From the NCBI GenBank assembly GCA_023957335.1, contig JAMLHC010000006.1:1-64000 (forward strand): DNA of 64,000 bases, read 5' to 3'. The translations under genes were made by a program, and so were the position numbers. A model generated the notes under the pieces. That model saw only the letters and a program-made list of their open reading frames with translations. It was not told the DNA's origin and did no database searches. The stretch is from Bacteroidota bacterium (GTDB lineage: Bacteria > Bacteroidota > Bacteroidia > NS11-12g > UBA955). This document shows positions 30,550 through 42,467 of this stretch, one piece after another (within the stretch, counting starts at the first letter, position 1; every line of letters starts with the position of its first letter).

Positions 30550-31278
30550 ATGACTTGGTTTAAACATTGGTTCGGCTCTGAGTTTTATGACAGGTTGTAT
30601 GACAACCGAAACGATGAAGAGGCTGTGGATTTTATTCACAAAGTATTTCGTAATCTACCTGAGGTTCACAACCCAAGCATATTAGACTTGTGTTGTGGCA
30701 ACGGACGGCACGCCATAGCCATGTCGGAATATGGCAGTGTGACGGGGGTAGATCTCAATTCTGAACAGATTGCCAAAGCCCAAGCCAGAAATATTGATAA
30801 TGCTGTGTTTTCAGTGCATGATATGCGTGAAATTGTGCATGCAAATCATTTTGATTTTGTATTTAATTTGTTTTCAAGTTTTGCATATTTTGAGGATTCT
30901 TCGGAAGATTTAAAAGTGCTGCAAAGTGTGTATGCTGACCTAAAAGCAAACGGAATCTTTGTGCATGATTTCTTAAATGCCGACTATGTACTCCCTCGTC
31001 TCAAACATTCAGAATACAAAAAGGATGGCGACCTCGCTTTTGACATTATACGAGAATACACAAACAAGAAAATTATAAAAAGAATAAAAGTTACTCAAGA
31101 CAACCGTATTCAAGGTATTTTCGAAGAAAAATTGACCGCTTATGTACCTGATGAGATACTTGCAATGCACCATAAAGCCGGTTTGCAACCTTATCAAGTT
31201 TGGGGTAACTACAAACTTGCCGACTTTGACAAAGACAACTCTCCCAGAATTATTATACTTTCTAAAAAGAACGGATAA
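30550..31278 (+). CDS. SAM-dependent methyltransferase
   Basis: 242 residues with Rossmann methyltransferase motifs: ILDLCCGNGRHAIAMSEYG (motif I), VTGVDLNSEQIAKAQ (motif II) and FDFVFNLFSSFAYF (motif IV). The C-terminal part (about 150-235) is a mixed beta region as in class I methyltransferases of the type 11/25 groups. Substrate unknown. First gene of a tight three-gene unit with PAP2 phosphatase (next codon) and ZIP transporter (17-base overlap). Confidence 0.88.
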   Translation: MTWFKHWFGSEFYDRLYDNRNDEEAVDFIHKVFRNLPEVHNPSILDLCCGNGRHAIAMSEYGSVTGVDLNSEQIAKAQARNIDNAVFSVHDMREIVHANHFDFVFNLFSSFAYFEDSSEDLKVLQSVYADLKANGIFVHDFLNADYVLPRLKHSEYKKDGDLAFDIIREYTNKKIIKRIKVTQDNRIQGIFEEKLTAYVPDEILAMHHKAGLQPYQVWGNYKLADFDKDNSPRIIILSKKNG

Positions 31279-31863: not shown

Positions 31864-32548
31864 TATAGCCATATTATTTATTTTCCCATTAATAGGAGGA
31901 CTTCTTGCACTCTATTCAAAACAAGAGTGGAAGAACACCATCAAATTATTTTTGGCTTTCAGCGGTGCATTTCTGTTTGCAATTACTTTCTTGAATTTTA
32001 TTCCGGAAGCGTACCATCATGTTGAAAATGCCGGAATTTGGGTTTTGGCAGGATTTTTCTTTCAGATTTTTATAGAGCAGTTTACGAAGGGAATTGAACA
32101 CGGACACAGCCATTTGCATGACATAAAGAACATTGCACCTATTTTTATTGGATTAGGTTTACATGCATTTTTGGAAGGTATTCCTGTAGGCTCTCAAAAT
32201 TCCGGGATTACTAATGGGCTTTTGTATGGAGTAGCATTACACGAAATGCCGGCTGCCTTTGTATTAGCCATCAGTATAAAGGCGCTTATGCCTGACAAGA
32301 ATATTTTACCATACATCCTAATCTACGCTTTATTTTGCCCTGCAGGAGCTACACTCGGTTACTATGTAGAACATATAGAGCATGGAGATAAGATTTTTAT
32401 GATTTTGTTGGCTTTTGTTTCGGGTACATTCCTTCATATTAGTACCACCATTCTTTTTGAAAATTCAGAAGAACACAAAATCAGCAAACGCAAACTAACT
32501 GCTGTTGTGATTGGAACAGGTTTGGCAATCCTGACTACGCTGATTTAA
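31847..32548 (+). CDS. ZIP-family metal transporter
   Basis: 233 residues with about eight membrane helices. A His-rich loop HGHSHLHD follows helix 3, and the binuclear metal-site helices are recognisable as GLGLHAFLEGIPVG (helix 4) and VALHEMPAAFVL (helix 5). ZIP proteins bring divalent metals such as Zn, Fe or Mn into the cytoplasm. Overlaps the PAP2 gene by 17 bases; its 3' end also overlaps the convergent NorB-like gene by 14 bases. Confidence 0.92.
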   Translation: MPSLFNIAILFIFPLIGGLLALYSKQEWKNTIKLFLAFSGAFLFAITFLNFIPEAYHHVENAGIWVLAGFFFQIFIEQFTKGIEHGHSHLHDIKNIAPIFIGLGLHAFLEGIPVGSQNSGITNGLLYGVALHEMPAAFVLAISIKALMPDKNILPYILIYALFCPAGATLGYYVEHIEHGDKIFMILLAFVSGTFLHISTTILFENSEEHKISKRKLTAVVIGTGLAILTTLI

Positions 32549-33857
32549 GTGACTTTTTTCTAAGCAAAGGGATTATCACCAATACAAATCCCGCAATCAT
32601 TGTTACTCCTGAGAGAAGGAACAGATAAAACCAATTATGCAAATGATTCATCATAATTTGATATGGCATATCGGTCTCTGTAAACTGATAATAAGTTTTG
32701 AGAAAACCGGCAATAATCAAGGTCAGCCAGAATACAAGTAATGAGTAGTTAATAATCCTATATCCATACTTTATCATCTTTCCGTCTTGTTCTTTGTATC
32801 CGATGATATCATAAGCAAAAGCCAATAGCAACATGGTATTAATTCCGATTGTTGCACCCATTGTATGTCCTACAATCACATGGGTTCCATGCATATATAC
32901 ATTGAGTGCAGGAATAGACATAAGAATCGCAAGGGCAAGAGTCAAAAACACCCATATATCTGCAGCAAACAAGAATCGGAATGCGACCTTGTGAAAATTT
33001 ATTTTAGCTGTGGACAGAGAAGATTTCCATAGATAAATGATTCTGCCAAACAATAACAATTCTGTCATACTCACCAAATAACCTATGTGTTTGACATAAG
33101 GCTGTGTAGGCAGCAAATAAACGTGATGTCCCCAATTAAACATCAGATTAAAGACCCCAAGAAAATAAAGTCCGAAAGCAATATTGGAAAAACTGTACTT
33201 CTTGTTTCCCAATATTTTATCCATCAGATAAATGGACGTTCCATAAATCAACTGATTCCACGCTCCCACTAATGATCCATAAGATTTCCATTGAATGGTC
33301 ATGTCTTTCACGAGATTATTTCTCACTTGCGGCAACAACCACGAATTAGACTCTAAATAGGTTAAAAGAAAGAAAATTGCCCCGGTAAACCACATCCATA
33401 TATAAACCGGTTGGTTCTTGAGGGTTTTCATATTGGCAACAAATACAATGATGAAAATAATCCAACCTACACTGATGGGGATTGAAAAGACAGGGTTAAA
33501 CTCCCAATATTCTCTGCCACCAAAAATTCCAAAAATAAATGAAATAAGAATTGCGGAGAATGTCAAAGCAAGGATATAAAATATCACTTTGATTAAGCCT
33601 TCAAACTTCAATCGTCCTCCAATATCTTCCTTTAAATAATATAGAATTCCTCCAATTGCACAAGTCAAAATCCAGAATATGGAAGAAGAAACGTGCAGCG
33701 GACGTATTTTAGCAAAAGAAAATATATCTCTCCAAAAGCCGGGCACCGCATACTCAATCGCACCCAATAATCCAAATAATAAAGTTGAAAGCAAGAATAT
33801 CAGCCCTGCTTTAATAAAAATAACGGGGTAATCTCTCTTACTGTGATATTGTTCCAT
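32535..33857 (-). CDS. NorB/cbb3-like haem-copper oxidase superfamily large subunit with atypical ligands
   Basis: 440 residues, about 12 membrane helices. Family landmarks: RPLHVSS (His55, low-spin haem ligand), TIQWKSYGSL (189-196), NWGHHVYL (His244-His245, two active-site metal ligands), and HGTHVIVGHTMG (His331, high-spin haem ligand). Glu266 in SMTELL matches a conserved NorB glutamate. Two expected ligands are missing: Ser195 stands where cbb3 enzymes have the YGHN histidine, and Met333 stands where the second low-spin haem histidine (HxH) belongs; the NorB WVEG glutamate is also absent. Paired with a NorC-like cytochrome that overlaps its start by 20 bases. Probably NO reduction or a related haem reaction, but altered chemistry is possible. 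Confidence 0.8.
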   Translation of the reverse strand: MEQYHSKRDYPVIFIKAGLIFLLSTLLFGLLGAIEYAVPGFWRDIFSFAKIRPLHVSSSIFWILTCAIGGILYYLKEDIGGRLKFEGLIKVIFYILALTFSAILISFIFGIFGGREYWEFNPVFSIPISVGWIIFIIVFVANMKTLKNQPVYIWMWFTGAIFFLLTYLESNSWLLPQVRNNLVKDMTIQWKSYGSLVGAWNQLIYGTSIYLMDKILGNKKYSFSNIAFGLYFLGVFNLMFNWGHHVYLLPTQPYVKHIGYLVSMTELLLFGRIIYLWKSSLSTAKINFHKVAFRFLFAADIWVFLTLALAILMSIPALNVYMHGTHVIVGHTMGATIGINTMLLLAFAYDIIGYKEQDGKMIKYGYRIINYSLLVFWLTLIIAGFLKTYYQFTETDMPYQIMMNHLHNWFYLFLLSGVTMIAGFVLVIIPLLRKKSLKSA

Positions 33858-34239
33858 CTAAATGTGTTGAAAATGTTCTGGGATCGGCAACCCCTGTTGA
33901 ATTTGTATATTTAAAAAACGCTATAAATTCTTTAATTTCTTGATCGTTCAATTTAAAATCCGGCATCACATTAGTCCCTGTATGTAAAACAGAAGATAAA
34001 TATTCCTCTGTCCGTTTGGAATATATATTTGTCAAATCAGGACCCAAATGCCCTCCCAAGCCATAAAGCTGATGACAAGCTACACAATTTTTCTTCTGCC
34101 ACAATATTCTTCCATTTTGCGCTAATTCATTGGGGAACTCCGCTTGTGGTTCATCAGAATCATATAAGACAATGCTATAAACCAAAAAAGCAACAAACAG
34201 CAAAATCAAAATGAAAATCTTACTTCTAAACTTCCCCAT
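33838..34239 (-). CDS. NorC-like membrane-anchored cytochrome c
   Basis: 133 residues. An N-terminal membrane anchor (about 8-25) precedes a single c-type haem domain: C52-V-A-C55-H56 with Met92 (NVMPDF) as sixth ligand. The order CVACHQL, GPDLTNIY, MPDF, then LNDQEIKEFIAFFKY closely follows NorC of cytochrome-c-dependent NO reductases. It would feed electrons from periplasmic cytochromes to the large subunit, whose gene overlaps its 3' end by 20 bases. No norD/norQ-type genes are nearby. The pair is divergent from the maf gene. Confidence 0.88.
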   Translation of the reverse strand: MGKFRSKIFILILLFVAFLVYSIVLYDSDEPQAEFPNELAQNGRILWQKKNCVACHQLYGLGGHLGPDLTNIYSKRTEEYLSSVLHTGTNVMPDFKLNDQEIKEFIAFFKYTNSTGVADPRTFSTHLDGTISQ

Positions 34240-34349: not shown

Positions 34350-34913
34350 ATGAATTTCCCTCCGATTTTACTTGCCTCCGGGTCTCCCAGAAGAAGATTT
34401 TTATTGCAAGATGCGGGTTTTGACGTGCAATTTACCAACCCCGATATTGATGAGAGTTTCCCTCCTACATTGCCTGCAAACGAAATACCTCTTTTTTTGG
34501 CAAAGGAAAAGAACCTCGCAGTTGACTCAGAATTGCTCATTGTTTCGGCAGACACCATTGTTTGTATTAAAGATGAAATCCTGAATAAACCGGCAAACGA
34601 TAAGGAAGCTTTCGAGATGCTGAACAAACTCAGTGGCAAAGCTCACTCGGTATATACCGGTGTGTACATGCGTCATAAGCATCAACAACAAGGGTTTGTT
34701 GAGGAGAGTAAAGTTTTTTTCAAAGACCTAAATCCTGATTTTATCAAAACCTATATCCAACAATGTAAACCATTTGACAAAGCCGGTTCTTATGGAATTC
34801 AAGACATGATGGGATATTTCGGGATTTTCCGGATAGAAGGATGTTATTACAACGTGATGGGATTTCCACTGGCAAGATTTTACGATGAACTGAAAGTGTT
34901 TTTGCAAAAGTAA
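34350..34913 (+). CDS. maf: Maf-family nucleoside triphosphate pyrophosphatase
   Basis: 187 residues, complete. Typical motifs: the N-terminal ILASGSPRRRFLL, then SADTIVC, LNKPANDKEAFEML, GKAHSVYTGV and the C-terminal DKAGSYGIQDMMGYFG with the following NVMGFPL. Maf proteins hydrolyse dTTP/UTP or modified nucleotides to monophosphates in the cytoplasm, and overexpression blocks septation in Bacillus. The M16 peptidase gene follows after 21 bases but has its own -7 element. Confidence 0.93.
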   Translation: MNFPPILLASGSPRRRFLLQDAGFDVQFTNPDIDESFPPTLPANEIPLFLAKEKNLAVDSELLIVSADTIVCIKDEILNKPANDKEAFEMLNKLSGKAHSVYTGVYMRHKHQQQGFVEESKVFFKDLNPDFIKTYIQQCKPFDKAGSYGIQDMMGYFGIFRIEGCYYNVMGFPLARFYDELKVFLQK

Positions 34914-34919
34914 TTGCCA

Positions 34920-34927
34920 TACATTTG
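34920..34927 (+). promoter_or_regulatory. Putative -7 element (TACATTTG) of M16 peptidase
   Basis: Exact TAnnTTTG match 7 bases before the ATG at 34935; supports that ATG over the upstream TTG at 34914. Confidence 0.4.
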
Positions 34928-34934
34928 CCCTTGT

Positions 34935-37868
34935 ATGAAACGATTCAAATTCATTTTGGGCACGTTTGCCCTTCTGTTCACATTGTCCGCACAGGCACAA
35001 CAACAATTTACAACAGTTAAACATGTTACTGACAGCGAATTCCCTTACGATTACATCGAAAACGACCCGGCAAATGCGCGTTTCTATGTACTTCCTAACG
35101 GACTGACTGTTATTCTTGCTAAAAACACAGAAAAACCCACCATTCAAACCCTGATTGCTACTAAAGCAGGCAGCAAAAACGACCCTGCAACCAATACAGG
35201 GCTTGCACATTATCTGGAACACATGCTTTTCAAAGGAACCGACAAATACGGAACCCTTGACTATACAACAGAACACATCTATTTGCTTCAGATTGATTCT
35301 TTGTACAATGTTTACAACAAAACCACAGACGAACAAAAACGCAAATTGATATACAAAGCCATCGACTCAACATCTCAAATTGCCGCACAATATGCCATTC
35401 CAAATGAGTATGATAAATTAATGCAAACCATTGGGGCTTCCGGCACAAACGCATTTACTAGTTTTGAACAAACCGTTTATGTAAATCAAATACCTGCCAA
35501 TGAGGTGGACAGGTGGCTCGAAATTGAAGCGGAAAGATTCAGGAATCCTATTCTGCGCATATTTCATACAGAATTAGAGGCTGTTTATGAGGAGAAAAAT
35601 ATTTCTTTAGACAATGACCAAAACAAAGTTTTTGAGTCATTATTTGAAAAGTTATTTCAAAATCACACCTACGGCACACAAACAACAATCGGCACAATAG
35701 AACACCTGAAAAACCCGTCATTAGACGCTATCCGCAATTATTATAAGACCTATTATGTGTCAAATAACATGGCAATTATCATGGTAGGAGATTTAGATTT
35801 TGACAAAACCATTCAGATTATTTCTGACAGATTTTCATATATGCAACCTAAACCCATTCCTGAATTTTCTTTTAAACCCGAAACACCTAAGAATGAGCCA
35901 ACTGTTGTAAATATCACAGGACCTTCTGCTGAAATGGCTATATTGGGCTATAGAATACCCGGAGCCGGAACAAAAGAGGCAGACCTTTTAAGCATGATGG
36001 ACTTGGTTCTGTCTAATTCTACTGCGGGATTGATTGATTTAAACCTAAACAAAAGTCAAAAAGTATTGGGAGCCGGCAGTTCTACCGAAATCATGAAAGA
36101 CTATTCGGTGCACTATTTCTATGCTATGCCCAAGGAAGGTCAAACCTTAGAAGAAGCTAAAAACTTAGTATTAGAACAAATCAAAGCTGTGCAAGACGGT
36201 AATTTTGATGAAAATCTCATGAAAGGTATTATTTTTAATCAAGAAGTAAGTGATATACAGAATTTTGAAGACAATCAAGGAACTGCTTATACCTTATTGG
36301 ATGCATTTGTTAAAAATCAAAAATGGGTGGATGTGCTGAATAGCAATTACAGAATGAGCAAAATTACCAAGCAAGAACTTATTGATTTTGCAAAAAAATT
36401 CTATCAAAATGATTATGTAATCATCTATAAGAAACAAGGCGAGAGCGACCAAACTGCCAAAATTGAAAAACCTCAAATAACTAAGATTCCTGTTAATAGA
36501 GATAATGTCTCAGGGTTTGTAAAACATATTTCCGAAGAACCCGTAACTCCCATTGCACCTCAGTTTCCTGATTTCAAGAAAGACATGCAACAAGGAAACT
36601 TAGGAATAGCAAACTACTTCTATATCCCCAACAAACGAAATGAATTATTTACGCTCTATTACGTGATAGATGCAGGTACATACAGCAACAAAGAACTTTC
36701 AATAGCATTGGATTACCTTGAATACATGGGTACCGACAAATACACTCCGGCTGAAATAAGTGAAAAATTCTATTCATTAGGCTGTAGTTTCGGGGTGAGT
36801 GCAGGCAATAGACAATCTTATGTTTATCTTTCAGGATTGCAACAAAACTTTGAACCTGCATTGGAATTGTTTGAACACTTGCTTTCCAATATGCAACCAG
36901 ATGAAGAAGCACTTAAAGATTTAAAAGGAAGATTGCTAAAATCCCGTGAAAACAACAAATCAAACAAAGGAGCCATTAGAACAGCACTCAACTTTTACGC
37001 AATGTATGGGCAAGACAATCCACAAAGATTTATATTAACCAACAAAGAAATAAACAAGATAAAGTCCAAACAGTTAATCAAATCCATCAAAACTCTTATG
37101 CAAACCAAACATGACATAGTTTATTATGGACCGAAGGATACAGAACAGATTTTATCAATGCTCTCAAAGTATCATAAACTGCCTAAGAAGTTTGCAAAGT
37201 CGCCTGTAATGAAAGTATTTAATCTCCAGCACCCGGCTGAATCCACTGTATATTTTGCAAACTACGACATGGTACAAGCTGAAATTACTTGGCAAAAACC
37301 CACACAACCATTCAATATATACATAGTACCCCAAGTAGCTATGTTCAACGAATATTTTGGTGGCGGCATGAGTTCAATTGTATTCCAAGAAATTAGAGAA
37401 GCGCAAGCTTTGGCATACTCCACCTATGCTTATTTTTACCAAGCATCATATCCTACGGAACTTGGCAGAATGTTAGCTTATGTAGGAACCCAAAGTGACA
37501 AAATGCCAGCCGCAATCAGCAGTATGGATGATTTAATTAGAAACTTACCACAAAATCAAAATTCATTTGCACAAGCTAAAACTTCTTTAGAAAATGGTAT
37601 TCGCACAAGTAGAACCACGAAAACAAACATCTATTTTGTCTGGAGAAATATGCAGCTCATGAATTTACCTAAAACTTCCAACGAGATTGTATTTGAACAG
37701 CTTAATAAAATCACGCTAAATGATGTTGTACAATTCCACGATAAGTATGTCAAACAAGGTATTTACACCCTGACCGTACTTGCAGACAAGAATAAAGTAA
37801 CTGAGGCTGATTTAAAAAAATATGGAAAAGTGATAAGTGTAAGCCTCGATGAGCTTTTCGGGTATTAA
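34935..37868 (+). CDS. M16 family zinc metallopeptidase (insulinase/pitrilysin type), secreted
   Basis: About 977 residues from ATG 34935, where the signal peptide MKRFKFILGTFALLFTLSAQA begins. The inverted zinc motif is His92-Y-L-Glu95-His96 (GLAHYLEHMLFKG), with a later EAVYEEKN supplying the third ligand. Two M16 halves are present; the second (from about residue 540) lacks HXXEH and is the usual inactive partner, ending with the GMSS.VFQEIREAQALAYS stretch typical of M16 C-terminal domains. Expected in the periplasm, degrading peptides. Ends 14 bases before the ATP-cone gene. Confidence 0.92.
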   Translation: MKRFKFILGTFALLFTLSAQAQQQFTTVKHVTDSEFPYDYIENDPANARFYVLPNGLTVILAKNTEKPTIQTLIATKAGSKNDPATNTGLAHYLEHMLFKGTDKYGTLDYTTEHIYLLQIDSLYNVYNKTTDEQKRKLIYKAIDSTSQIAAQYAIPNEYDKLMQTIGASGTNAFTSFEQTVYVNQIPANEVDRWLEIEAERFRNPILRIFHTELEAVYEEKNISLDNDQNKVFESLFEKLFQNHTYGTQTTIGTIEHLKNPSLDAIRNYYKTYYVSNNMAIIMVGDLDFDKTIQIISDRFSYMQPKPIPEFSFKPETPKNEPTVVNITGPSAEMAILGYRIPGAGTKEADLLSMMDLVLSNSTAGLIDLNLNKSQKVLGAGSSTEIMKDYSVHYFYAMPKEGQTLEEAKNLVLEQIKAVQDGNFDENLMKGIIFNQEVSDIQNFEDNQGTAYTLLDAFVKNQKWVDVLNSNYRMSKITKQELIDFAKKFYQNDYVIIYKKQGESDQTAKIEKPQITKIPVNRDNVSGFVKHISEEPVTPIAPQFPDFKKDMQQGNLGIANYFYIPNKRNELFTLYYVIDAGTYSNKELSIALDYLEYMGTDKYTPAEISEKFYSLGCSFGVSAGNRQSYVYLSGLQQNFEPALELFEHLLSNMQPDEEALKDLKGRLLKSRENNKSNKGAIRTALNFYAMYGQDNPQRFILTNKEINKIKSKQLIKSIKTLMQTKHDIVYYGPKDTEQILSMLSKYHKLPKKFAKSPVMKVFNLQHPAESTVYFANYDMVQAEITWQKPTQPFNIYIVPQVAMFNEYFGGGMSSIVFQEIREAQALAYSTYAYFYQASYPTELGRMLAYVGTQSDKMPAAISSMDDLIRNLPQNQNSFAQAKTSLENGIRTSRTTKTNIYFVWRNMQLMNLPKTSNEIVFEQLNKITLNDVVQFHDKYVKQGIYTLTVLADKNKVTEADLKKYGKVISVSLDELFGY

Positions 37869-37882
37869 TCATCTTTAATACC

Positions 37883-38719
37883 ATGAAGGTACGCAAATAT
37901 TCGGGGGAGCTAACAGAGTTTGATATAGACAGACTTCGTAAGTCTTTAACCAAATCCGGAGCTTCAGAAGATGATGTTGAGGCGGTATTACAAAGCATAA
38001 AACCGAGGTTGCATGACGGAATGCATAGTAAAGAAATATACAAACTCAGTTTTAAAGAGTTAAAAAAAATAGCGCATTCATTCGCAGCGCGATACAGTCT
38101 CAAAAGAGCATTGCGTGACTTAGGTCCTACCGGCTTTTATTTTGAAAAATGGGTGGCTAAATTTCTTGAATGCTACGGATACCAAACCTTGCATAATCTC
38201 GTGTTACAAGGACATTCGGTTTCACACGAAAGCGATGTAATTGTGCTCAGAGAGAATGAACTGTATTGGATTGAATGCAAGTTTCGCAATGCAATGGAAA
38301 CCAAAATTCCGGTAACCATTCCTATGTATTTCCTATCACGCATTAAGGACATTTCAGATAAAGACTTTTCATTATTTGGACAAGAGAGGAAGTTTACTAA
38401 TGGCTGGCTTATTACAAACTCTTATTTCACTTCAGACTCCATTGCATTCGCTGAATACTATAATATGAAATTATTGTCATGGGAATATCCTATCGGAAAC
38501 AGTATCAAAAATCAAGTTGACAAAAAAGCATTATACCCCATTACTTGCCTGACAACGTTAAACATCAAGGAGAAAAGGTTTCTACTGGAAAAAGAGCATA
38601 TTCTGGTAAAAGAACTCAGTGAAAACAACGAGATACTTGAAAAAATGGGAATTGATTTTAATAGACGAAATAAGATTGAACAAGAAATCGAAGAGCTAAT
38701 TCCCAATCAAGCTAATTAA
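37883..38719 (+). CDS. ATP-cone domain fused to PD-(D/E)XK nuclease-like domain
   Basis: 278 residues, cytoplasmic. Residues ~1-85 are an ATP-cone (MKVRKYSGELTEFDIDRLRKSL ... HSFAARYSLKRALRDLGP), the nucleotide-sensing module of ribonucleotide reductases and NrdR. Residues ~86-190 look like a restriction-endonuclease fold of the Mrr type: Glu88 in FEKWVAKFLECYGY, Asp118 in SHESDVIV and Glu131-Cys-Lys133 in YWIECKF give a complete D-(E)xK catalytic set. The C-terminus (~225-275) is a charged helix, possibly coiled coil. A nucleotide-gated nuclease is the plain reading; substrate and role are unknown. Between the M16 peptidase and a convergent surface-protein gene. Confidence 0.82.
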   Translation: MKVRKYSGELTEFDIDRLRKSLTKSGASEDDVEAVLQSIKPRLHDGMHSKEIYKLSFKELKKIAHSFAARYSLKRALRDLGPTGFYFEKWVAKFLECYGYQTLHNLVLQGHSVSHESDVIVLRENELYWIECKFRNAMETKIPVTIPMYFLSRIKDISDKDFSLFGQERKFTNGWLITNSYFTSDSIAFAEYYNMKLLSWEYPIGNSIKNQVDKKALYPITCLTTLNIKEKRFLLEKEHILVKELSENNEILEKMGIDFNRRNKIEQEIEELIPNQAN

Positions 38720-41700
38720 CTATCTTAGCAATGTAAATGTTCCCTTTGTGCTGTAATATCTATCAGCATAATCTGTGTATTCAATAAAGAACACATAAAC
38801 ATCCTGCTTGCAGGGTACACCCATGTAGTTACCATCCCAAGTTTGTTTAAAATCATCCGTAACAAAGAGTTTTTCGCCCCATCTGTCAAACACAGTCATT
38901 TTAAAGGTCTTGACAACAGCTGCACTAGGACCAAAGCCTTCATTCAACCCATTGCCATCGGGAGAAAATGCATTTGGAATATACATCAAGGGCGGATAAT
39001 TAAAGCAAACTTCGTTTGACCATGACTCCTCGCCTCTACCCTCGTTTTCATTAGCTTTGATTCTATAACATTGGGTATAATGGTCTGTTCCATTATCATA
39101 TTGTATCCTTACAGTGGATGTTTTCCAATCATATTCTTCAAAAGGAGTTTTGTTTAAGAGTTTTCTGTTAATTTTATAATTTTCAACACCTTGATGCCAG
39201 CCGAGATAATCAGTAAAGTCAAGTTCCGCACTATATTCAGTAGGCTTATCGCCTTTTAATAAAATAGTTCGGTGAATGGGAGAAGTTATTTCAGTTCCAC
39301 ACAGGTTAGTGCCTTTAATCACATAATCAAAAGGCGTAATTTTAGTGTTGACTTTTTTCTCTGTAAATGTAAACACATTGCCCTGCACTTCACCAATTTG
39401 CTGAAAAGCATTTTCAGGATTTACCGTGCGTTTATATATCCTAAAAGTATTGTCATATCTGGGAGCATTCACAAGTTCCCAATTTATAAAAACCTGCTTG
39501 TCACCTGCCGGAGGAGGACTAACGGTTACAACTTTAATATCAACACCTATACTATCAATAAATACATTTTTGGATAAAGTATCTCCTATGCATCCAAAAT
39601 CAGAACGTTCATACACAGAAATTGAATTGTATTGTTTTCCACTCCAGTCAACCATCACAATAGGAGCCAAAAGACTATCCTGAACACCACTATTAACTGT
39701 CCAATGGAATGTAGAGCTTGGAAATCCCGTAACCGTATACTTCTTGTTTAAAAAATCAGGGAAGCAGAGTACATCTTCTCCTACAATAGGAGTAGTTGTG
39801 GGTTTTGGATGAATAATAAACACACTGTCTATGACTGCACCTTCACAATGAAATTCACTGGTTTCGATGACTTTGATTATATACTTTCCGGCAATATTGG
39901 TTGGATATTGAATTGATTTTGTACCTTGACCTATCAACATTGTATCACCGTTCACCTCCCAATGATATCTTGAATTCGGAAACCCATTCAGCGTAAATGT
40001 GAGTGGGCTCGTATATTGACAAACTTCAAAAACACCTTCTATCTTATCTGCTTTAGGTACAGGATTGATAATTATATCAATGTCAACAGTATTACTCACA
40101 CATTGCTTACTGTTCAACGTATCATAGGCGGTCTGGTAGTATTTGATTTTGCCCATGCCTTCTGCTCCCCAATTTACGTATAAGAAAAAGAAATTAGTAT
40201 CAATTTCATCTATGGCTCCACCGGTTACATCCCAATAGTATATGGTGTTGTAAACAAAGGGATAAGGAATATATTTTTCTCTCTTACTAAACTCACAAAC
40301 GGAATAATTACCCAGAGGTTTTTCGATTATCAAATCGTATGTAACATTGATAGAGTGATACAAAGTATCGCCCACACATCCAATACTTGTGGTTTCAATT
40401 GCTTTCAGTATGATGGTGGATGGTTCTCCAAATGCAAGCGTAACAGTGTCCGTGCCCTGCCCTCTCTGAATGGTCGCTCCATCAGCAATCCATTGATAAG
40501 TAGATCCCGGTGCTCCTTTTACATAGAATTGAATATTGCCATTATTAGGACACGCTGTTTGAGGTCCAAAGATACTGTCCGTAAGTGCTTTAACGGCTAT
40601 GACAGTTTTTTGGGTTGTATCACTGGGACAACTATACTGAGATTTATAATACAATCCGGCAGTATATCTGCCGACATCATTTGCAAGCATCCCCAAAACA
40701 CCCATTGATGCAACTTCATTGTTGAGTGAATCAAGCCAAGTCCAATCCAATGCATTTACAGAAGTAGTTGCAGAATGAACAAAAAATATACTATCCCCTA
40801 CGCAAACACTATCCGCTGGCACTGGCGGAAATAAAGAACGATAAGTAAGAATTTCAGGAGCGGGAGGTGTGGGTGCATATTTTACACTATATGATTTTGT
40901 AATATCCTCACATCCGGATTTAGAAATCTCTTTGGCTTTTACAATTCCCGAAGTTTTAGTAAAATCCCAATCCACTATTATTTCTTTAGTTCCTTGTCCG
41001 GAAACAATATTTCCATTATCAAGCTCCCATTGAACGGTACTTCCGGCTACAACATTAAGAGCTTGGTATTTAACTCCTTTCGCATTAGGACACACGGGAT
41101 TGACTCCTGTAATGAGCAATTTGCTCTTAAAAGGTTTTACATAAATATAATATGTTTCATTAATAAATTTTGGGGGACAACCATCATCCACCGATTCTAA
41201 TACAAAAGTGTAGGGCGCAGCGCGTCCTTGCTCACACGAAGTTTGCCAACAAAAAGTAGAAGTTACGGTTTTGAATCCTGTTTTGGATGGAAATGTTGCA
41301 GTAGGACCAACCCATGCACCGCCACCTGTGAAAATTTCTCCGTAGGCTGTAAGCTTAACATTTTGGTTGTCAAAATCCTTTGAGGTAATATTAAAACAAA
41401 GTTGTTCTCCGGCTGTAACCTCTCGGGTATAAATTGCCGAAGAAGCATCCAAATAGGGTTTATTATTGGCAGCACAATCAATTACCAACAATTGTAAATC
41501 CAGTCGAACAGTATTAATCAAAATTCCATTTCTATATTCATCCACATCAACCGCAAGCGCATATCTACCTAAGGCACGCGCCATCACAGTCATAGTTCCG
41601 GTTGATGGATTGATATTGGAGTAACCACTGGAGCCAAAAGGTCTCGTCTCGTCATATCCGCTGTTATAAACAATACTCTTTGGGGTTAAATAGAAATTTT

Positions 41701-42364
41701 CACATCCGGGAATTGCATCATCCGGTCCTCCACCACCCCATGGTCTGGCAAATGTAAATACAAGTGAGTCTCCGTCCGGGTCAACAGCATAACTTCTGAT
41801 TTGAGTAGTATCATCAATACAGATAAAAGGCACAGGGACTCCTGTGAAATATGCAGAGTTGTTGGGTATAGAGGTTGGTGGAATTTTACAGAGATAGGTT
41901 TGTCCTTGTGTTGGTTGATAAACCCCTTGAATATATCCGTTGGGTAAATTTTGTTGCGTATTACGGCAACAACGCTCCCACTTTAGAATGTAACCAAAAT
42001 TGCTTTGAGGCAAAACGATTATCTTTTCATAAACACTCACTTCAATACAAGCCTGTGCATTTTCCGGACACTTTGTATTACCCACAGGATCAACCTTAGT
42101 AGGACGACCATTGGGAATAACCACTGATGATACACGATCTCCCTTCCCGCTATATATACAGACTACCATGTCTTTATCAAATTCAACAGTGCTTTTACAA
42201 TCCCTATACACTGTAAAATAGACCCTATACCGGTAATCTGTAGTATTTCCAATCCTCCCCAATAATTCATAGCCGGCATATCCACCCACAAGATGAGTAG
42301 CAAATGCAGCGTTGGTTAGACCAAATGCAAAAAATAGAAAAATAAGGATTCGCTTTACCCTCAT
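38720..42364 (-). CDS. Giant surface protein with gliding-motility-type (T9SS type B) C-terminal domain
   Basis: 1214 residues from ATG 42364, where the signal peptide MRVKRILIFLFFAFGLTNAAFA starts; the upstream extension to 42463 is rejected. The N-terminal ~330 residues contain a Cys-rich module (FTVYRDCKS, CCRNTQ, DPDGDSLVF) homologous to the start of the protein at 43750. The middle has several repeated PKD/Ig-like domains of ~80-90 residues with ...STYQW and ...RYHWEVNG motifs. The end IPNAFSPDGNGLNEGF ... VFDRWGEKLF ... TWDGNYMG is the CHU_C/gliding-motility sorting domain. Probably a large adhesin or surface filament exported by T9SS. Confidence 0.9.
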   Translation of the reverse strand: MRVKRILIFLFFAFGLTNAAFATHLVGGYAGYELLGRIGNTTDYRYRVYFTVYRDCKSTVEFDKDMVVCIYSGKGDRVSSVVIPNGRPTKVDPVGNTKCPENAQACIEVSVYEKIIVLPQSNFGYILKWERCCRNTQQNLPNGYIQGVYQPTQGQTYLCKIPPTSIPNNSAYFTGVPVPFICIDDTTQIRSYAVDPDGDSLVFTFARPWGGGGPDDAIPGCENFYLTPKSIVYNSGYDETRPFGSSGYSNINPSTGTMTVMARALGRYALAVDVDEYRNGILINTVRLDLQLLVIDCAANNKPYLDASSAIYTREVTAGEQLCFNITSKDFDNQNVKLTAYGEIFTGGGAWVGPTATFPSKTGFKTVTSTFCWQTSCEQGRAAPYTFVLESVDDGCPPKFINETYYIYVKPFKSKLLITGVNPVCPNAKGVKYQALNVVAGSTVQWELDNGNIVSGQGTKEIIVDWDFTKTSGIVKAKEISKSGCEDITKSYSVKYAPTPPAPEILTYRSLFPPVPADSVCVGDSIFFVHSATTSVNALDWTWLDSLNNEVASMGVLGMLANDVGRYTAGLYYKSQYSCPSDTTQKTVIAVKALTDSIFGPQTACPNNGNIQFYVKGAPGSTYQWIADGATIQRGQGTDTVTLAFGEPSTIILKAIETTSIGCVGDTLYHSINVTYDLIIEKPLGNYSVCEFSKREKYIPYPFVYNTIYYWDVTGGAIDEIDTNFFFLYVNWGAEGMGKIKYYQTAYDTLNSKQCVSNTVDIDIIINPVPKADKIEGVFEVCQYTSPLTFTLNGFPNSRYHWEVNGDTMLIGQGTKSIQYPTNIAGKYIIKVIETSEFHCEGAVIDSVFIIHPKPTTTPIVGEDVLCFPDFLNKKYTVTGFPSSTFHWTVNSGVQDSLLAPIVMVDWSGKQYNSISVYERSDFGCIGDTLSKNVFIDSIGVDIKVVTVSPPPAGDKQVFINWELVNAPRYDNTFRIYKRTVNPENAFQQIGEVQGNVFTFTEKKVNTKITPFDYVIKGTNLCGTEITSPIHRTILLKGDKPTEYSAELDFTDYLGWHQGVENYKINRKLLNKTPFEEYDWKTSTVRIQYDNGTDHYTQCYRIKANENEGRGEESWSNEVCFNYPPLMYIPNAFSPDGNGLNEGFGPSAAVVKTFKMTVFDRWGEKLFVTDDFKQTWDGNYMGVPCKQDVYVFFIEYTDYADRYYSTKGTFTLLR

Positions 42365-42432
42365 ATATACAATGCAAATTACGTCTTTTTTTATTATCAT
42401 CAATCTGAATCTTTTCAATATTTGACAAATGC

Positions 42433-42440
42433 TATATTTG
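42433..42440 (+). promoter_or_regulatory. Putative -7 element (TATATTTG) of glycosyltransferase gene
   Basis: Exact TAnnTTTG match 27 bases before the TTG start proposed at 42468, in the divergent spacer with the giant surface protein gene. Confidence 0.4.
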
Positions 42441-42467
42441 CAACAGTTTAAATAAAAATACATTCAC

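Follow-up and report, generated by a model that had tools for sequence, protein, structure and literature searches.

The open reading frame at positions 37,883 to 38,719 of the analysed stretch of Bacteroidota DNA (the window, 64,000 nucleotides) encodes an N-terminal ATP-cone fused to a PD-(D/E)XK nuclease domain with an invariant catalytic set, and genes for related proteins across the phylum recurrently adjoin genes for a ribonuclease-like beta-CASP protein, a nucleoside or nucleotide phosphorylase-like enzyme, and PRPP synthetase. We tentatively read the protein, at somewhat under even confidence, as an adenine-nucleotide-gated nuclease that would act in the turnover or salvage of the cell's nucleic acids under low oxygen or low energy. 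Because its relatives usually share an operon with an RNase and with nucleotide-dismantling enzymes, a nuclease that recycles at low energy is more likely than an anti-phage weapon.

Domain architecture and catalytic residues

The frame is intact, begins with ATG and comprises 278 codons (Table 1). The Pfam ATP-cone model (PF03477) spans residues 1–79 (E = 7e-9; 36.5 bits versus a cut-off of 25.8), and the cone runs directly, with no linker, into the PD-(D/E)XK domain (residues 84–200), where both Mrr_cat (PF04471; residues 84–198, E = 1e-6, 29.3 bits versus 21.0) and NERD (PF08378; 25.2 versus 22.1) exceed their cut-offs. These matches bear out the fusion proposed in an earlier note on this DNA, and the residues that it named as the nuclease set, Glu88, Asp118, Glu131 and Lys133, stand at the positions given there.

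Loss of this set was looked for in an alignment of 56 full-length Bacteroidota sequences (34–79% identity to the window protein), and all four residues are unchanged in 56 of 56. Residues G81, P82, G84, F87, G110, H115, E116, C132, Y149, R153, D156, T178 and N179 likewise never vary. Because the catalytic set is invariant, the protein is almost certainly an active-type nuclease as judged from its sequence; an inactive or regulatory-only nuclease was considered and is ruled out by the same invariance. Selection on the gene, measured against the other species of the window's genus, is purifying (dN about 0.12–0.14, dS saturated); the two proteins differ at 21% of their residues, with synonymous change saturated. 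The fusion is neither chance nor an assembly artefact. A structure model computed from two sequences, those of the window and of its sister species L004, reached a pLDDT of 37.

Table 1. Features of the ATP-cone nuclease gene and its surroundings in the window.
Feature	Coordinates	Strand	Basis
ATP-cone / PD-(D/E)XK nuclease gene, 278 aa	37883..38719	+	ORF, Pfam, full-length homologues in 49/296 phylum genomes
ATP-cone domain, aa 1-80	37883..38122	+	PF03477 above cut-off; residues align with RNR cones
PD-(D/E)XK (Mrr_cat/NERD-like) nuclease domain, aa 81-200, opening with invariant GPxGFxFE-type motif	38123..38482	+	PF04471 and PF08378 above cut-off; 1Y88 match
E88 codon (helix-1 Glu)	38144..38146	+	invariant 56/56
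D118 codon	38234..38236	+	invariant 56/56; equivalent to predicted catalytic D of AF1548
E131-C132-K133 (ExK) codons	38273..38281	+	invariant 56/56; equivalent to predicted E and K of AF1548
C-terminal domain, aa 201-278, common to AF1548	38483..38716	+	1Y88 profile match reaches C-terminus
M16 peptidase gene, 14 bp upstream of nuclease	34914..37868	+	PF00675/PF05193; same order in sister species L004
Maf-type nucleotide pyrophosphatase gene	34350..34913	+	PF02545
Haem-copper oxidase-family subunit I and c-type cytochrome	32535..34239	-	COX1, Cytochrom_C; clusters c45/c46
Convergent gene, type IX-secreted PKD/CHU_C protein; outside the system	38720..42463	-	domain annotation

Comparison with known proteins

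The closest comparison is with AF1548 of Archaeoglobus fulgidus (PDB 1Y88), a predicted restriction-endonuclease-like protein for which D38, E51 and K53 are the predicted catalytic residues (PMC1821046). Its nuclease and C-terminal domains match those of the window protein along their whole length (phmmer E = 7.6e-20; family profile E = 2.4e-47), and D118, E131 and K133 of the window protein reproduce the 13- and 2-residue spacing of the archaeal triad exactly. The last ~75 residues correspond to the C-terminal portion of AF1548, a domain that we take, from its sequence pattern, to be helix-hairpin-helix-like. Unlike the window protein, the crystallised AF1548 chain has no ATP-cone. In that chain the first residues behind the tag already lie just beyond the site of the helix-1 Glu, and the AF1548 gene start may have been annotated too late, so that an upstream ATP-cone was missed.

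Type IV restriction enzymes of the Mrr group (Mrr_cat, PF04471) share the catalytic domain family above the curated cut-off, but carry an N-terminal DNA-reading domain where the window protein has the ATP-cone and where Pfam lists no Mrr_N match; the stress-type neighbourhood of the window family sets it further apart. The cones of ribonucleotide reductase (RNR) and NrdR are the same domain, with the VxK, G, F, K[IL] and DG...[ST] motif in common, but they are joined to a reductase or to a DNA-binding zinc ribbon rather than to a nuclease, and their K-R pair is K-[A/S/Y] here. Nucleases of the Can2/Card1 type (7BDV) embody a similar idea of a ligand-gated PD-(D/E)XK enzyme, and their nuclease part is a weak sequence match; their sensor, however, is a CARF domain, whereas the window protein has an ATP-cone and its CARF matches cover the nuclease part only.

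Distribution and phylogeny

Of 296 genomes sampled evenly across the phylum, 49 (17%) encode a full-length homologue. Such homologues are also present in 7 of 108 genomes of the window's order and on two plasmids, one from Pontibacter and one from Criblamydia (Chlamydiota). The plasmid homologues are recorded in databases as 'ATP cone domain-containing protein', and under this name the fusion is already present there. Our search for literature on an ATP-cone joined with a nuclease, a restriction enzyme or a universal stress protein (Usp) found no paper on the fusion. Beyond the Bacteroidota, the searches took in plasmids, phage records and viral contigs, together with one scan of genome contigs by patterns derived from a single protein, which matched only the sister species.

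In the family tree, pairing with the beta-CASP gene described below is present on both sides of the midpoint root. The window's clade (window, L004 and L034) nests inside a clade of 15, the other 12 members of which are all paired, which suggests that the linkage was lost in the window's lineage, though counts alone cannot tell gain from loss.

Genomic neighbourhoods across the family

Around 55 homologues, genes were called and clustered over flanks of up to about 7 kb either way, and the clusters were named by Pfam. In 32 of the 55 loci the nuclease gene is closely followed, on the same strand, by a beta-CASP metallo-beta-lactamase gene, which is the very next gene in 31 and stands behind one small ORF in L052; the spacing is mostly within 60 bp, often with a 4 bp overlap. 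The pair covers 13 genera of 4 families plus the two plasmids, and the closest solved relative of the beta-CASP protein is the RNase TTHA0252. Most of the paired genomes tested hold a single close beta-CASP copy, the one beside the nuclease, so that chance adjacency, at about 1 in thousands per genome, is negligible. The partner is missing in about 40% of loci, which counts against a role in salvage.

Genes for a phosphorylase and for PRPP synthetase come after the nuclease gene in L052, L061, L088, L094, L095, L109 and L111. The phosphorylase passes models for the archaeal-type putative thymidine phosphorylase and comes near, but stays below, the AMP phosphorylase cut-off (506 versus 535 bits). 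The Pontibacter plasmid has the order 2-hydroxyacid dehydrogenase, nuclease, beta-CASP, phosphorylase, PRPP synthetase, and the Criblamydia plasmid the order P-type ATPase, phosphoketolase, glycogen phosphorylase, ATP-cone nuclease, beta-CASP, thymidine phosphorylase family, PRPP synthetase, acetate kinase, glucoamylase. On the latter (L094, 137-12886) the entire energy-stress operon lies near a site-specific integrase, suggesting transfer between phyla.

Within the window's order, five of five homologues outside its genus adjoin some of the partner genes: beta-CASP and phosphorylase in L108; phosphorylase, PRPP synthetase and Usp in L109; beta-CASP and PRPP synthetase in L110; a P-type ATPase, a short beta-CASP frame, phosphorylase, PRPP synthetase and 2-hydroxyacid dehydrogenase in L111; and phosphorylase, PRPP synthetase and PEP synthase in L088. 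Across the family, 29 Usp genes, some in tandem, lie near the nuclease in 14 loci and P-type cation ATPase genes in 20, and the further recurring neighbours are Hsp20, D-lactate-type dehydrogenase, Crp-type regulators, glutaredoxin, CDGSH proteins, M50-CBS peptidases and haem-copper/cytochrome pairs. Such company does not fit the roles in phage defence, control of DNA uptake or repair that the earlier note had preferred.

Two clusters of small conserved proteins with no Pfam match, c14 (L057:9816-10262) and c25 (L065:7848-8258), recur beside the nuclease in Usp-rich loci. In one genus (L035-L039, L044, L045 and L048) the nuclease/beta-CASP pair is flanked not by stress genes but by two small membrane proteins and a TonB receptor; by eye, and with no Pfam match, the membrane proteins resemble an exosortase-F pair.

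The neighbourhoods also bear on two alternatives to salvage. An unlikely though still credible one is a nuclease for DNA repair or recombination in times of stress, whose cone would sense the supply of dNTP or ATP so that DNA ends or junctions are left alone until synthesis can proceed, with the C-terminal domain binding DNA. The PD-(D/E)XK/Mrr-type fold is weakly similar to Holliday-junction resolvase families, the C-terminal pattern is helix-hairpin-helix-like, and the nuclease is present without operon partners in some lineages, the window's included; however, the neighbour clusters that recur showed no genes of recombination or repair, and the partners are instead an RNase and nucleotide-catabolic enzymes. 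Rather unlikely, too, is that the protein is an RNA-processing partner of the beta-CASP enzyme, either a regulated ribonuclease or part of a stress RNA-decay complex (e.g. for rRNA/mRNA shut-off), and not a catabolic supplier. That 32 of 55 loci join it to a gene for a TTHA0252-like ribonuclease speaks for such a partner, but in L088 and L109 the nuclease stands with phosphorylase and PRPP synthetase in an operon without a beta-CASP gene, and Mrr and NERD folds mostly cut DNA.

A related low-oxygen module

The same three kinds of partner gene are found in Bradyrhizobium diazoefficiens, where the consecutive tags bll3115-3117 denote an MBL-fold hydrolase, PRPP synthetase and a thymidine phosphorylase family protein; at 0.5% O2 the proteins rise by log2 2.9, 4.4 and 2.1 and the transcripts 15.4-, 7.7- and 5.1-fold, and the same microoxia-induced list includes Usp, Hsp20, phosphoketolase and a P-type ATPase (PMC6515984). 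The gene order suggests that bll3115 is a beta-CASP protein. Three proteobacterial plasmid copies that were examined hold the trio, or its MBL-phosphorylase core, without the ATP-cone nuclease. The nuclease is therefore not essential to the pathway, which tells against the salvage reading, and is probably an added, regulated member of a wider low-oxygen module. FNR/Crp-type sites showed no enrichment upstream of the operons, a further point against salvage, and regulation is for this reason inferred from the neighbours and the Bradyrhizobium data only.

The window locus

At the window locus itself the nuclease is not linked to beta-CASP, phosphorylase or PRPP synthetase genes; its neighbours are the M16 peptidase gene, with which it is probably co-transcribed, and the gene for the secreted protein. 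The haem-copper/cytochrome pair, which may be NorB/NorC-like, lies 3.6 kb upstream on the opposite strand, and in L078 and L081 a homologous pair sits immediately upstream of the nuclease. The earlier note was correct that no DNA methyltransferase gene adjoins the nuclease: the nearest methyltransferase found, at 30550-31278, has a Methyltransf_25 domain, a type that mostly acts on small molecules.

No phosphorylase homologue was detected in the window's genome by a search that was positive in other genomes, a search for phosphoketolase, run without a positive control, gave no match there, and the beta-CASP homologue of this genome is unlinked to the nuclease and only 33% identical. These observations weigh against salvage in the window's organism, and because of them the operon argument rests on relatives and may not hold in full there. 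In the window's genus the gene has either lost its linked partners or never possessed them, and the local role of the nuclease may be a reduced version.

The ATP-cone as a candidate sensor

In the cone, K5, L18, S21 and A27 never vary among the 56 sequences, and G8, F13, K17, S/T49 and Y53 are strongly kept while other cone positions vary freely. In an alignment with RNR ATP-cones from the same phylum, K5, G8, F13, K/R17, D45-G46 and S/T49 find their counterparts, with coincident V-x-K, G, K[IL] and DG...[ST] positions. The Arg that follows the first Lys of RNR cones is not kept in the nuclease family, where A, S or Y is common, and because of this nucleotide binding by the cone, as predicted from sequence, is not assured. 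A nucleotide-gated nuclease remains the natural reading. It is improbable that the cone senses nothing and is only a dimerisation or structural module, leaving the nuclease constitutive: the missing second basic residue and the R17 and S49 of the window cone, in place of K and T, would agree with this, but the strong retention of K5, G8, F13, K17, S/T49 and Y53 amid freely varying positions argues against it.

The nuclease is the sole ATP-cone match in the window's whole genome; its RNR therefore seems to be without an activity-site cone, and NrdR was not detected. In some loci a glucoamylase-family (PF10091) protein encoded near the nuclease gene (L049:8178-9710, L053:8179-9711, L047:1241-2773) has an N-terminal stretch that resembles the same ATP-cone (in L049, residues 6-59, E = 3e-5, slightly below the cut-off), and it is possibly a second ATP-cone-regulated catabolic enzyme in these clusters.

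Defence

An anti-phage effector that cuts DNA when infection shifts the ATP/dATP balance has the least support beside DNA repair and RNA decay with beta-CASP, and we regard it as very improbable: patchy presence (17% of phylum genomes), plasmid-borne copies and a weak resemblance between the nuclease part and CARF-PD-(D/E)XK effectors speak for it, but the neighbours are not defence genes, the stress and metabolic neighbourhoods are conserved across families, and no copies were found among 50,697 phage records or in the viral contigs of IMG/VR. Only about four of 77 representative neighbours match defence models (PADLOC, 1e-10), no CRISPR genes were seen among the neighbours, and the defence-island association to which the earlier note had pointed was dropped on these results.

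Proposed mechanism

In the favoured reading as a salvage nuclease, the protein would be the optional first member of a Bacteroidota low-oxygen/energy-stress operon, followed by the beta-CASP ribonuclease, the AMP/thymidine phosphorylase-like enzyme and PRPP synthetase. Phosphoketolase, acetate kinase, PEP synthase, Usp, Hsp20 and P-type ATPases are present as well in some species. Adenine nucleotides bound at the N-terminal ATP-cone would set the activity of the PD-(D/E)XK nuclease. Nucleotide-driven association of ATP-cones is known in RNR, and since the cone runs straight into the GPxGFxFE motif with the helix-1 Glu, a like association could open or shut the nuclease. ATP/dATP would be the 'off' signal in an energised cell, a sign that is our guess. 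A stop in respiration would then cause the cell to break down its own nucleic acid in a regulated way: the nuclease and the RNase would release nucleotides, and the phosphorylase and PRPP enzymes would recover pentose phosphates (and bases) to be reused or fermented. We infer this substrate and this order of steps.

A more specific proposal, which is possible but doubtful, is an emergency programme by which cells running low on oxygen or energy would consume their own nucleic acid as a source of ATP. Low ATP (or dATP) would free the cone-gated nuclease, and together with the beta-CASP RNase it would feed nucleotides to the AMP-phosphorylase-like enzyme, PRPP synthetase, phosphoketolase and acetate kinase to yield ATP, PRPP synthetase possibly being run backwards to make it. 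Such a programme, if true, would be previously undescribed.

Work on the ATP-cone has been confined almost entirely to ribonucleotide reductase and NrdR; the domain is here extended to a nuclease, and a family known in databases just as 'ATP cone domain-containing protein' is offered a concrete function. To our knowledge, nucleic-acid breakdown under anoxia is poorly understood outside a few models; the operon connects this process, in bacteria exposed to anoxia, with a likely energy sensor.
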